The notes beneath the pieces were generated by a model. It did no database searches. It was not told where the DNA came from and saw only the letters and a program-made list of their open reading frames with translations. From the NCBI RefSeq assembly GCF_020103725.1, contig NZ_JAHXBG010000028.1, positions 62,001 to 126,000 on the forward strand: a stretch of DNA of 64,000 nt, read 5' to 3'. Positions 9,265 through 25,464 of this stretch are shown here, one piece after another. Every line of letters begins with the position of its first letter. The stretch's first letter is position 1. The position numbers and the translations under genes are program-made. Source of the DNA: Hyalangium gracile. GTDB taxonomy: Bacteria > Myxococcota > Myxococcia > Myxococcales > Myxococcaceae.

Positions 9265-11166
9265 TCAGCCCGCCATGAGAAGCGAGCGCGCGGCCTCGGT
9301 GGAGAGGTAGCTCTTGCTCTTCACGGCCAGCCGGAGCGTGTCCAGCCGGGGCAGCCGCTCCTGCCGGAGCATGGCGAGCGTGAGCGCGTTGTGGCAGTAG
9401 ACGCTCACGAGCCGGGGGAGCCCTCCGCTGCGCAGGTAGAGGATCTGCCGCGAGGCCGTGTCGAGCGCGAACCCCGCCACCCCACCGATGCAGCGCATCC
9501 GGAAGTCGATGTACTCGACCATCTCCTGCTGGCTCATGGGGCGCAGGGCCACGGCGGGCACGCCGCCGAGCAGGCTCTGCGGCGCGTTGTTCTGGACGAG
9601 CCCCTGGTGCAGGTTCTCCGTGCCGATCATCACCAGGGCGAACTTGCGCCGCGAGGTGGCCTGGACGATGCGATCCAGCTCGGCGAGCAGCTCCTGATCG
9701 GCCGGGTCGACGCCATCCACGACGATGACGGCGGTGGCGTCCGGCCGGTCCGGGAGCACGTGCGCCAGGAAGGCCTCGGTGAGGAAGCGCTGGCTGGAGT
9801 TCGCGTTGACCTGGACGCCCACCTGCCTGCAGAGCGCCAGGAAGAGCCGCGAGCCGAGCACGAGCTGGGGCTCGATGGAGAAGACGGAGGCGCCCGGCAG
9901 CTTGTGCTGCAGCATCTCGCAGAGGAACGTCCTGCCGCTGCCCTCCGGGCCCACGAGCATGCTGACGCGCTGGCCCTGCTCCACCCGGTTGGCGAGGGCG
10001 AACAGCGCGGGGCCATAGGGCCCCCCATCCCAGAAGGAGGCCGGCTGGCGGATGTCGCTGAAGGGGTAGCCCTTGAGCGCGTAGTACTGGTGGTAGCTCT
10101 GGTTGCCGAGCACCTCGATCTCCCGGCCCGAGGCCTCGAGCGCCGAGGAGGACGTGGGCCCGGACCAGTTCGAGCGCGAGGAGGCGGTGTGCCCTCCCGG
10201 CCAGTTCATGAGGGAGGCCGAGAGCGAGCGCGAGGAGGTGTGGCTTCGAGGCCCGGTGCCGGGACCCTCGGAGGCACCGATGGGCGCGGGGGTCACCGTC
10301 AGGGGCGCGCCGGCCCTCGCGCGCGAGTGCTCCCGCCACCGCTGGAGGACGTCATCGAGCCTGTCCACGAGCGCCGCGGCCGTGGGCCGCTCCTGGGGCT
10401 GCTTGGCCATGCAGCGCCAGAGCACCTCCGCGAGGGCCGGATCCAGGTCGGGCACGTGCGTGCGCGCGTCCGGGACCGGGCTGTTGCAGTGCGCCTGCAT
10501 GGAGCCGTAGAAGTCCGTCGCCGCGAAGGGCCGGTTCCCGGTGACCAGGTGGAAGAAGGTGCAGCCCAGGCTGTAGACGTCCGCGGCCGGCGTGGGCGTG
10601 CTCCCGGTCCACTGCTCCGGCCCCATGTAGAAGGGCGTGCCTTCGATCTGCGCCATGGCCTGGCCGATGGTGCCGCTGGCATCCACCTGGGCCGCCAGGC
10701 CGAAGTCGGTGATCTTCAGCGCCCCGTTCGAGGTGAGCAGCAGGTTGGCCGGCTTGATGTCCCGGTGGCAGATGCCCATGGACGCCGCGAGGCGGAGCGC
10801 ATCGGCCGCCTCGCGCATCTTCTCGAAGGCGAAGGGCACGGGCAGCCGGCCTCCGTACTGCTTGGCCACGTGCCGCGTCGAGGCGCCCTCGATGTACTCC
10901 ATGGCGATGAAGCGGTGACGGGTCGTCTCTCCGATCTGGAAGATCTGGACGACGTTGGGGTGGATCAGCCGGGCCGCGGCGCGCGCCTCGCGCAGGAAGC
11001 GCTCGTGGAGCTCGTGATCGATCTCATCCGTGCCCTTGGTGAGCAGCTTGAGGGCGACCTCCCGGCGCAGGATGTTGTCGCGCGCCAGGTAGACCATGCC
11101 CATGGCGCCCGCGCCGAGCAGTCGGACGATCTCGAAGGCTCCAATGCGTTGTCCGGTCGGATCCAT
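9265..11166 (-). CDS. Ser/Thr protein kinase fused to an ExeA/MshM-type AAA domain
   Basis: 633 residues. Residues 10-280 are a Hanks-type kinase: glycine loop LLGAGAMGMVY, Lys40, HRDIKPAN at 134-141, DFG at 154-156 and GTPFYMGPEQ in the activation region. A serine-rich linker (285-350) leads to an ATPase of the ExeA/GspA/MshM type from YHQYYALKGYPFSD to the end. In ExeA this kind of ATPase helps a secretin assemble across peptidoglycan. Here the Walker A reads GPEGSGRT (Arg in place of Lys) and the Walker B strand ends VVDGVD without the usual glutamate, so ATP hydrolysis may be lost. There is no transmembrane helix. The gap to the globin gene (11190) is 23 bases, so cotranscription is likely. 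Confidence 0.88.
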   Translation of the reverse strand: MDPTGQRIGAFEIVRLLGAGAMGMVYLARDNILRREVALKLLTKGTDEIDHELHERFLREARAAARLIHPNVVQIFQIGETTRHRFIAMEYIEGASTRHVAKQYGGRLPVPFAFEKMREAADALRLAASMGICHRDIKPANLLLTSNGALKITDFGLAAQVDASGTIGQAMAQIEGTPFYMGPEQWTGSTPTPAADVYSLGCTFFHLVTGNRPFAATDFYGSMQAHCNSPVPDARTHVPDLDPALAEVLWRCMAKQPQERPTAAALVDRLDDVLQRWREHSRARAGAPLTVTPAPIGASEGPGTGPRSHTSSRSLSASLMNWPGGHTASSRSNWSGPTSSSALEASGREIEVLGNQSYHQYYALKGYPFSDIRQPASFWDGGPYGPALFALANRVEQGQRVSMLVGPEGSGRTFLCEMLQHKLPGASVFSIEPQLVLGSRLFLALCRQVGVQVNANSSQRFLTEAFLAHVLPDRPDATAVIVVDGVDPADQELLAELDRIVQATSRRKFALVMIGTENLHQGLVQNNAPQSLLGGVPAVALRPMSQQEMVEYIDFRMRCIGGVAGFALDTASRQILYLRSGGLPRLVSVYCHNALTLAMLRQERLPRLDTLRLAVKSKSYLSTEAARSLLMAG

Positions 11167-11189
11167 TCAACGACTTCCCAGGGGGCTCA

Positions 11190-13052
11190 TCATCTCTGAC
11201 GGTCCGACCCTCGACCACGACCCCAGAGGTAACCCACTGCCAGCGCGGCCAGGGTGAAGATGGGAGCGGCGAGTCTGGGCAGATCGCCCAGGTTCAGCGA
11301 GGACGCGGCCTGTCCGAGCGGCCCCAGGGCGAACACGGTGCTGACCGAGACCAGCACGCACAGGGCCACCAGCAGCACGGGAGACACCGTGGCCCCCTTG
11401 GGGGCCGAGACGGGCTCGGGGGGCGGCGTCCGGACAGGCGGCGCGGGCTTGGGCGCGGGGGGCTCGGGGGCCGTGGCACGCAGGGCGAGGGCGCTCAGGG
11501 CCGCATCCGCCTCGAGCTTCACGTTGAGGTGGAAGTTGACGTTCACCTCGCGCGGGACGTTCAGGGGAATGGAGACCGCGGCGGGGACGGCGGCGGCCGG
11601 GGCGGCCACCGGGACGCTGACGGTCCGGACCTCGGCGGTGAGCTCCTCGCGCGGAGCCGGGGGCTGGGCGTAGGGCTGAAGCCCCATCAGCCGGGTCTGC
11701 GACAGCATGTGGTAGGGAATCGTCTCGTCGCCCACGGTCGGCGGCTGCACGGGCGTCGCGGGGCGAGCCACCAGGATGTCCTCCGGCACGGGAGGCGCGG
11801 AGGGCGGCGGCGCGGCGGGGGTCTTCACGGTGGGCCGAGTGCCCGCGCTGGAGGCCGCCGCCTTCCTCATGACGCTGGCGACGAGGCCGTAGACTTCCTT
11901 CCAGGCCGACTCGGTCTCCAGGGTGAAGCCGTCGCCGAGGCCCTCGCGCAGCGTCCACAGCAGGGCCTCGCCCACCAGGTCATAGTGGTGATCCTGGACC
12001 ATGTAGCCGGCATGGCGCGCCCCGAGCTGCTCGAGCACGGGGATGAGACGCTGGGGGTTGGTCAGCCCGTCGACGGCGACGCCCAGCGTCTGCATCAGCT
12101 TCTTCTTCTGCTGGGCCATGTCGTTCTTGAAGAGGGGCCGCACCGACGGGTCCATCTCGAAGAGCCGGTCGTAGAAGAGGCCCGCGGCCGCATCCGAGAT
12201 GGGCAGCACCTGCGCCCACGACTGCTGGACGAGCTCGACGGTGCGTGCACTCAGGGGACCCTTGGCCGCCGGAGCGACAGGCTGGGCGACCGCGGCGCTG
12301 GGGGCCGCGACCGGCGGGGCGGAGGGAGCAGGCGGAGGCGCCGCGGGGCGCGGAGGCGCTACCGAGGCGGGGGCCGGCATGGGCACGGGCGGCGGCGCGG
12401 ACTGCACCGGAGGGGCGGGCGCCGGCGGCGGGCGCGCGACGGCGGGCTGGGGAGGCGCCGGGGCCTTGGCGGCCGAGGCCGCGGCCTTCTTCATGACGCC
12501 GGCGACGAGGCCGTAGACTTCCTTCCAGGCCGACTCGGTCTCCGGGGTGAAGCCATCGCCGAGGCCCTCGCGCAACGTCCACAGCAGGGCCTCGCCCACC
12601 AGTCCGTAGTGGTGGTCCTGGACCATGTAGCCGGCGTGGCGGACCCCGAGCTGCTCGAGCACGGGGATGAGACGCTGGGGGTTGGTCAGCCCGTCGACGG
12701 CGACGCCCAGCGTCTGCATCAGCTTCTTCTTCTGCTGGGCCATGTCGTTCTTGAAGAGGGGCCGAACCGACGGGTCCATCTCGAAGAGCCGGTCATAGAA
12801 GAGGCCCGCGGCCGCATCCGAGATGGGCAGCACCTGGGACCAGGAGCGCTGGACGAGCTCGACGGTGCGCTGGCTCAGTGGCCCCTTGGCCGCGGCCATG
12901 TTGGGCGGGGCGAGCACCGTGTTGGTCGGCGGAGGCGGAGGCGGAGGCGCGCCCGGACGCTGGACCGCGGGCAAGGTCCCGGCTCCGTAGGACACGGTGC
13001 TGGAGGCATTGAAGGTGCCAGGGGCCGGCGCAGGCTGCTTGGGGTCGGACAT
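11190..13052 (-). CDS. Membrane-anchored protein with two tandem bacterial globin domains
   Basis: 620 residues. Two globin domains (about 58-190 and 266-398) are joined by a proline/alanine-rich linker and followed by another low-complexity region, then two hydrophobic segments near the C-terminus (from SPVLLVALCVLV and LAAPIFTLAALAV). By comparison with Vitreoscilla haemoglobin, each domain keeps the B10 tyrosine (LFYDRLF), CD1 phenylalanine (RPLF) and proximal histidine (QLGVRHAGY or QLGARHAGY), so haem binding is likely. Possible roles are oxygen or NO binding, or redox sensing at the inner membrane with globins in the cytoplasm. A strong GGAGGGAG precedes the ATG. It lies just upstream of the kinase-ExeA gene on the same strand, hinting at a sensor/kinase pairing. 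Confidence 0.85.
   Translation of the reverse strand: MSDPKQPAPAPGTFNASSTVSYGAGTLPAVQRPGAPPPPPPPTNTVLAPPNMAAAKGPLSQRTVELVQRSWSQVLPISDAAAGLFYDRLFEMDPSVRPLFKNDMAQQKKKLMQTLGVAVDGLTNPQRLIPVLEQLGVRHAGYMVQDHHYGLVGEALLWTLREGLGDGFTPETESAWKEVYGLVAGVMKKAAASAAKAPAPPQPAVARPPPAPAPPVQSAPPPVPMPAPASVAPPRPAAPPPAPSAPPVAAPSAAVAQPVAPAAKGPLSARTVELVQQSWAQVLPISDAAAGLFYDRLFEMDPSVRPLFKNDMAQQKKKLMQTLGVAVDGLTNPQRLIPVLEQLGARHAGYMVQDHHYDLVGEALLWTLREGLGDGFTLETESAWKEVYGLVASVMRKAAASSAGTRPTVKTPAAPPPSAPPVPEDILVARPATPVQPPTVGDETIPYHMLSQTRLMGLQPYAQPPAPREELTAEVRTVSVPVAAPAAAVPAAVSIPLNVPREVNVNFHLNVKLEADAALSALALRATAPEPPAPKPAPPVRTPPPEPVSAPKGATVSPVLLVALCVLVSVSTVFALGPLGQAASSLNLGDLPRLAAPIFTLAALAVGYLWGRGRGSDRQR
11871..12245 (-). repeat. 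Globin-domain direct repeat, copy nearest the 3' end
   Basis: This 375-base segment aligns without gaps to 12495-12869, offset by 624 bases (208 codons). By eye there are about 18 differences, and a stretch of about 120 bases is identical. It encodes the second globin domain. Confidence 0.85.
12495..12869 (-). repeat. Globin-domain direct repeat, copy nearest the 5' end
   Basis: Partner of 11871-12245. It encodes the first globin domain. The near identity, including synonymous positions, indicates a recent duplication or gene conversion. Confidence 0.85.
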
Positions 13053-13235
13053 GGGGAGATTCTCCCTCCAAGTCCTGCGTCTTTCGGAGGACCTGTAAAG
13101 TTGGTTGTGCAGTGGAGGACTAGAGAAAGGCCTGTCTGGCCTCGACTCTGTGAGAAGACGGGCGCTTCAGTCCTCTCGAAGCCATGCCGACAGCGGGCCC
13201 TCGCCCCCCTGGCCGCCATACTCGTGACGTGCGAT

Positions 13236-23997: not shown

Positions 23998-25464
23998 ATG
24001 CGTTTGCCATCCCTGCTCTGGACGGGCCTGCTCGCTCTCGCGCTCGAAGCCAGCCGCCCGGAGCCCCGGGGGCCGGGCCTTCCGAAGGCTCCCTCGGAGC
24101 AGGGCTCGGGGACGGCCGCCTCCGTCTCCAGCGCGGCGCCCACGGGCTCGGGGCGCTTCCAGATCCCCGCCGAGCCCCAGCGCCCGGGCGATCCGAAGGC
24201 CGGCTACGACACCCTGGTGAATGGTGGGTACGTGAGCTGTGGCGTCCCCTGGTCCATCTTCCGCATGGCCATGGGGGATGCGCCCGCGAGCCTGCGGCTC
24301 AAGGGCCGGCGTGGCCACAACGCGCGGCTCTCCTATGAGGTGACGGCGCTGAAGACGCCCCGAGGCGTGGAGGTGGTGACGGCCAACTGCCTGGGCTGCC
24401 ACGCCACGCCCACGGAGAAGGGCGTCCTCATCGGGCTGGGCAACTCCTCATTGGATCTCACCGAGGACTTCTCGACCTTCGCGATGGCCGCGGGCCTCCT
24501 GGTGAAGGATGCGGACGAGCTGGCCGAGTGGTGGCGCTGGTCCTCGCGCATCCGCGCCGTGAGCCCCTACACGCGGCCGGACACCATCGGGGCCAACCCT
24601 GCCGACAACCTGGCCGCGGTGCTCGCGGCCCACCGCGACCCCGAGACGCTCGAGTGGTCGAGCACGCCGCTGCTGGCGCTGCCTCCGCGCGAGCCGGTGC
24701 CCGCGGACGTGCCCGCCTGGTGGCTGCTGCGAAAGAAGAACGCCATGTTCCACACGGGCATCGGCCGGGGAGACCACGCCCGGCTGATGATGTCCGCGTC
24801 CATGCTCTGCACCGACAGCGTGGAGGAGGCCGAGCGAATCGACAGCCAGTTCGACGACGTGCGGGCCTATCTGACGACGCTGCGTCCTCCTCCGTATCCG
24901 CACCCCATCGATTCCAAGCTCGCCGCCGAGGGGCGCGATGTCTTCGAGGCCTTCTGCTCCGAGTGCCACGGCACCTACGGCGCCAAGGAGTCCTATCCCA
25001 ACCTCATCATCCCGCTGGAGGAGGTGGGCACCGATCCGCTGCTGTGGCAGTCCACCGCGCGCGAGGGCGTGCCGATGGTGGAGTGGTTCAACCGCTCATT
25101 CTATGGACGCACGGCGCGGCTGGTGCCCGGGCCGGGCTACGTGGCGCCGCCGCTGGATGGCATCTGGGCCACCGCGCCCTATCTGCACAACGGCTCGGTG
25201 CCCACGCTGGAGGCCCTGCTCGACAGCCGCAAGCGCCCCGCCTGGTGGCGCCGCTCCTTCAGCCGCCGCGAGTTCGATCCCGTCGCGCTCGGGTGGAAGC
25301 ACCAGGTCCTCTCACACGGCAAGGCCGCCGAGCCCAACCCCACCATCCGTAAGCGCATCTACGACACGACCCTCCCTGGGTACTCCAACCACGGTCACCG
25401 CTTTGGTGATGAACTGTCGGATTACCAACGCCATGTCTTGAAGGAGTATCTTAAGACGCTGTAA
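23998..25464 (+). CDS. Di-haem c-type cytochrome
   Basis: 488 residues from the ATG at 23998, preceded by GTGGAG. A short hydrophobic N-terminus (RLPSLLWTGLLALALEA) should direct export. Two haem-attachment motifs are present: CLGCH at about residue 130 and CSECH at about 320. Later GYVAPPLDGIWATAPYLHNG resembles the C-terminal haem domain of di-haem oxidoreductases and MauG/peroxidase-like proteins, where the histidine or methionine nearby would ligate the haem. It therefore acts in periplasmic electron transfer, but the partner is unknown. It is divergent from the zinc-ribbon gene across a 276-base gap in which I see no other gene. Confidence 0.85.
   Translation: MRLPSLLWTGLLALALEASRPEPRGPGLPKAPSEQGSGTAASVSSAAPTGSGRFQIPAEPQRPGDPKAGYDTLVNGGYVSCGVPWSIFRMAMGDAPASLRLKGRRGHNARLSYEVTALKTPRGVEVVTANCLGCHATPTEKGVLIGLGNSSLDLTEDFSTFAMAAGLLVKDADELAEWWRWSSRIRAVSPYTRPDTIGANPADNLAAVLAAHRDPETLEWSSTPLLALPPREPVPADVPAWWLLRKKNAMFHTGIGRGDHARLMMSASMLCTDSVEEAERIDSQFDDVRAYLTTLRPPPYPHPIDSKLAAEGRDVFEAFCSECHGTYGAKESYPNLIIPLEEVGTDPLLWQSTAREGVPMVEWFNRSFYGRTARLVPGPGYVAPPLDGIWATAPYLHNGSVPTLEALLDSRKRPAWWRRSFSRREFDPVALGWKHQVLSHGKAAEPNPTIRKRIYDTTLPGYSNHGHRFGDELSDYQRHVLKEYLKTL

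Follow-up and report, generated by a model that had tools for sequence, protein, structure and literature searches.

Known globin systems and the tandem globin locus

Most descriptions of haem sensing in bacteria concern fused globin-coupled sensors and haem-PAS/GAF kinases. The globin-coupled sensors, in which a haem globin controls a signalling output, also occur in myxobacteria, such as AfGcHK (Anaeromyxobacter) (PMC8697598). HGbI (Hell's Gate globin I, Methylacidiphilum infernorum) is a flavohaemoglobin-like single-domain globin without helix D. Its Tyr29 and Gln50, the equivalents of TyrB10 and GlnE7, bind O2, and the protein dimerises via helix B (PMC4476040). HGbRL (globin-Roadblock/LC7, PDB 3wfw) is a putative signalling protein whose globin domain is related (PMC4476040). 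Two-domain and multi-domain globins are known in invertebrates (Ascaris, Barbatia, Daphnia, and Artemia); the portion of PMC4503718 cited here describes tandem functional domains and unequal exchange in these proteins, and mentions tandem globins of prokaryotes without giving detail.

A tandem globin gene was identified on contig 28 of the 11.7-Mb genome of Hyalangium gracile (Myxococcaceae). It occupies 11190..13052 on the minus strand and encodes 620 aa. Positions refer to the window, which is the whole 64,000-nt stretch of DNA that was analysed, and all features of the gene and its partner lie on the minus strand. Homologues were searched in 96 Myxococcaceae genomes and in 195 Myxococcota genomes. 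The tandem globin was found in four of the 195: H. gracile (G000), H. versicolor (G006), a Myxococcaceae bin (G005), and a genome of a different genus (G042).

Architecture and membrane tether

The Pfam search matched PF00042 twice in the protein (E 6.4e-33). From the N-terminus to the C-terminus, the chain consists of a disordered N-terminal segment, globin domain 1 (12480..12887; aa 56-191), a Pro/Ala-rich linker (12273..12476), globin domain 2 (11856..12263; aa 264-399), a Pro-rich linker with a conserved motif, a juxtamembrane segment (SIPLNVPREVNVNFHLNVKLEADAAL), a two-helix membrane hairpin, and an Arg-rich C-terminus. The overall arrangement is common to all three complete genes. The second Pro-rich stretch carries the conserved GDETIPYHMLSQTRLMG motif (GDETxPYH). 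The linear motif GDETIPYHMLSQTRLMGLQPYAQ (11664..11732; aa 441-463) is conserved in four orthologues, and is a candidate phosphorylation or docking motif. Matches to LpxK within the globin domains (PF02606 and TIGR00682) were below cut-off and were discarded.

The hairpin and Arg-rich tail (11190..11387; aa ~556-620) are at the end of the chain, which terminates in WGRGRGSDRQR after the hydrophobic hairpin. One strong hydrophobic helix is found at aa 559-577; a second one at aa ~594-611 is only weakly hydrophobic on the Kyte-Doolittle scale. The AlphaFold model places the helices at aa 558-574 and 588-611; it was built from an alignment of two sequences with a pLDDT of 40, and this low confidence supports nothing beyond the helix pattern. 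The C-terminal membrane tether proposed in the first-pass annotation is thus borne out, with one strong and one weaker helix. Orthologue comparison showed that the tail hairpin is among the best-conserved parts of the protein. No N-terminal signal peptide or helix was found in the tandem globin. Taken with the positive-inside rule, this suggests that the globin domains should be on the cytoplasmic side.

Haem pocket and globin lineage

Both domains contain TyrB10, PheCD1, GlnE7, and HisF8, and the orthologue alignment showed that these residues are invariant in every readable globin domain. The two domains are therefore haem-competent by their residues, as had been proposed from the first inspection, and they might be expected to bind haem. 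The proximal histidine, whose loss in most homologues had been named as a refuting outcome, is invariant. The closest solved structures are HGbI (PDB 3s1i and 3ubc; E 1.1e-33 for 3s1i), followed by HGbRL and the Vitreoscilla haemoglobin (Vgb). The tandem globin shares the globin profile and HisF8/TyrB10/GlnE7 with the HGbI-like class, but not its single domain per chain.

Two other assignments were rejected. The protein is not a flavohaemoglobin (Hmp), which would contain a C-terminal FAD/NAD reductase; NF009805 matched the globin part only, and below cut-off. It is not a globin-coupled sensor either. The globin does not belong to the S family, its best relatives being HGbI and Vgb; no output domain was found in the chain by Pfam and NCBIfam searches, and the kinase is a separate gene.

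Several other globins were observed in myxobacteria. A second HGbI-like type, with an insert before HisF8 (DLFLVVLALGRRHTELYRVPDEAY), is encoded at three loci of other myxobacteria (L042, L043, and L044); the gene following it at L044 reads like a MinD-type protein. A 743-aa open frame in another genome (L045, G016) joins an HGbI-like globin to apparent PAS and methyl-accepting chemotaxis segments. Flavohaemoglobin-like proteins (L010, L011, and L012) were found in three genomes of the same genus that have no tandem globin.

Concerted evolution of the two domains

The two domains are 92.9% identical over 140 codons (390/420 nt), and 93.6% identical over 136 codons (408 nt, 26 differing positions). 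A core of 300 nt (11851-12150 and 12475-12774) is 95% identical. The first estimate, about 375 bases at about 95%, was therefore slightly generous. The identical run that had been put at about 120 bases was measured as 121 nt, and it is the longest one between the domains (12644..12764 in domain 1; 12020..12140 in domain 2). It is longer than expected from a random scatter of the differing codons (permutation p = 0.009), and is probably the most recent conversion tract.

Comparison of the orthologues showed that the domains resemble each other more within a gene than between species. The nucleotide identity within the gene is 93.6% in H. gracile, 97.5% in H. versicolor, and 91.2% in G042; between species, it is 83-91%. 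In the phylogenetic tree, the globin domains group by genome. The AU test rejected a clade of the first domains (p about 1e-66), and also the pairing of the first domains of H. gracile and H. versicolor (p 9e-5). Of the sites that divide the four domains of these two species two and two, 22 do so by species (xxyy) and one by position (xyxy). The dS is 0.11-0.28 within a gene and 0.33-0.63 between species; the likeness is thus not merely due to constraint at the protein level. The interdomain linkers of H. gracile and H. versicolor are homologous (z = 7.1 against codon shuffles; 0/500 shuffles), which indicates that the tandem is older than the split of these species and was homogenised afterwards. 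The duplication is therefore old, predating at least this split, and the domains evolve in concert by recurrent gene conversion in each lineage. Of the two origins offered in the first-pass annotation, recent duplication or gene conversion, only the latter stands. A single recent duplication is rejected for H. gracile and H. versicolor by the site patterns and the linker homology.

Two further explanations of the likeness were considered. Each lineage might have duplicated its globin recently and independently, without gene conversion. The pairing of domains by species in the trees would fit this scenario, as would the linker of G042, which gave no confident alignment with the Hyalangium linkers; the duplication in G042 could be independent of that in Hyalangium. 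However, the homologous linkers of H. gracile and H. versicolor place the tandem before their split, and the layout is common to all three complete genes, so independent recent duplications are an improbable substitute for gene conversion. The other explanation is that one domain was copied through mis-assembly. The genomes are drafts, and in two of the four the orthologous gene is interrupted by a contig break in or close to the repeat. In G005, an 87-nt stretch within the globin domain is common to two contigs, which is consistent with a second copy but does not prove it. In G042, the ends of two contigs coincide exactly over 111 nt within the linker, and when joined the contigs encode one protein of 584 aa. 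On the other hand, the H. gracile copies differ at the 26 positions given above and the linker between them is unique sequence. The tandem is on one contig in two assemblies, and it spans the exact contig overlap in the third. In H. versicolor, both domains are on a single contig and are identical in protein sequence. The check for an assembly artefact proposed at the outset thus left the repeat standing, because it recurs in independent assemblies in which its copies differ; counting the globin domains gave two per chain in three genomes, H. gracile included. Mis-assembly is rejected, and its probability is negligible.

The partner kinase-AAA gene

The downstream gene (9265..11166) encodes a PknB-like Ser/Thr kinase with a C-terminal ExeA/AAA_22-like module. 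The kinase core (PF00069, E 1.8e-47) retains HRD and DFG in all four orthologues, as expected for a Hanks-type Ser/Thr kinase. The AAA module is ExeA/PEP-CTERM-like with a degenerate Walker A (GSGRT) and Walker B (DG) in 4/4 orthologues: the Walker A Lys is replaced by Arg, and the Walker B has no Glu. The C-terminus therefore does not have the Walker A Lys and the Walker B acidic pair that define ExeA/AAA_22 proteins, and is probably a pseudo-ATPase fused to an active-looking kinase. PknB-type bacterial kinases share the same core with HRD and DFG; the partner has the degenerate AAA module in place of their PASTA repeats.

The two genes are adjacent wherever they were found (four genomes, three genomic contexts). 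In H. gracile and H. versicolor, the pair is flanked by genes for a prolyl oligopeptidase and a PAS-histidine kinase; in G005 it is located elsewhere, and G042 provides the third context. Searches for the AAA module returned only the same four genomes, both in the family (E <= 1e-50) and in the 195 Myxococcota (E <= 1e-16). When the tail was used alone as a query for further sensors with this anchor, the 96 Myxococcaceae yielded no carriers beyond these four. A box around CAGGTCCTC (13082..13100; 5' end of CAGGTCCTC at 13095) precedes the globin gene in 4/4 genomes. The exclusive co-occurrence, the adjacency in three contexts, and the conserved upstream box indicate that the globin and kinase-AAA genes form a transmitted unit. 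Three of the four carriers belong to one genus, so the co-occurrence reflects few independent events rather than four.

The first-pass annotation had placed the kinase gene 23 bases downstream and suggested an oxygen/NO-linked signalling unit. The gap is indeed 23 nt (11167-11189), and the pairing holds as an exclusive adjacent co-occurrence in 4/195 genomes and three contexts; control of the kinase and the O2/NO ligand stay at the level of a proposal.

Some variation was seen around the locus. The CAGGTCCTC-like box is doubled in G042 and G005, and one further CAGGTCCTC is present within the window, at 25303 on the plus strand. G005 also has prolyl oligopeptidase and histidine kinase neighbours without the pair (L066, G005:C95), which is an empty-site arrangement.

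Proposed function

With the observed architecture, haem-pocket residues, concerted evolution, and exclusive pairing as its starting point, the preferred reading is that the tandem globin might be an inner-membrane-anchored haem gas sensor (O2 or NO), which acts through its dedicated adjacent kinase. We give this reading a probability of about 0.55, judging from sequence features. Two HGbI-type globin domains in one chain would be tethered in the cytoplasm by the C-terminal two-helix hairpin. They would bind haem and a gas, most likely O2 and possibly NO, and might act as a covalent pseudo-dimer. The ligation state could be passed to the adjacent kinase, with the GDETxPYH motif in the globin tail and the degenerate AAA module perhaps providing the route. 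Either downstream targets or the globin tail itself would in turn be phosphorylated by the kinase. The domains are kept alike by recurrent conversion of one copy by the other. A wider reading is more tentative, and we hold it at rather less than even odds: the anchored tandem globin, the separate Ser/Thr kinase, and the pseudo-ATPase may form a haem module of new architecture, in which conversion keeps identical sites for a covalent symmetric dimer.

The tandem globin might instead store and supply O2, or destroy NO as a dioxygenase, while tethered to the membrane near the respiratory chain, with the kinase modifying the globin and not being controlled by it. HisF8, TyrB10, and GlnE7 are common to Vgb and the flavohaemoglobin-type globins, and two equivalent ligand sites would fit storage or catalysis. 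The flavohaemoglobin-like proteins of the three same-genus genomes without the pair point in the same direction, but this contrast is drawn from very few genomes in a non-exhaustive search. Moreover, the pair contains no reductase domain or gene, and the gene invariably found beside the globin encodes a protein kinase. A store or dioxygenase is thus considered unlikely, though not very much so. It is more doubtful still that the protein is a haem-binding lipid or redox/pH sensor, in which a lipid at the membrane would switch the haem coordination and inform the kinase, by analogy with HGbI. HGbI binds lipids stoichiometrically, with altered haem coordination (PMC11203436), and the domains studied here are HGbI-like and membrane-tethered. 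However, the lipid effect in HGbI has no known physiological role, and sequence does not tell lipid sensing from gas sensing.

Comparison with known systems

Invertebrate tandem globins (PMC4503718), bacterial single HGbI-like globins, and fused globin-coupled sensors in myxobacteria (PMC8697598) are already known. In the open-access literature, whose coverage is incomplete, no description was found of a membrane-tethered tandem globin of the flavohaemoglobin lineage with a constant separate Ser/Thr kinase. If the gas-sensor reading is true, haem sensing would have a further arrangement, in which an anchored tandem globin is separate from the kinase dedicated to it. In addition, the gene offers a small, naturally occurring case of two domains that evolve in concert within one bacterial protein. 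It allows one to ask whether two identical haem sites are selected for, or whether close repeats are simply converted.

The tandem globin shares its lineage, TyrB10, GlnE7, and HisF8 with HGbI, and could mimic the helix-B dimer of that protein. However, HGbI consists of one soluble domain, whereas the tandem globin carries a second domain, is extended by Pro-rich linkers and a membrane hairpin, and is paired with a kinase. HGbRL has a single globin fused to Roadblock/LC7, without a tandem, a membrane anchor, or a kinase. The multi-domain globins discussed in the cited portion of PMC4503718 are for the most part haemoglobins of animals, either circulating or extracellular, which are presented there without a membrane anchor or a kinase partner. 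Globin-coupled sensors carry an S-family globin and its output domain in a single fused chain. The tandem globins instead belong to the flavohaemoglobin lineage, and their output is likely to be a Ser/Thr kinase encoded separately.
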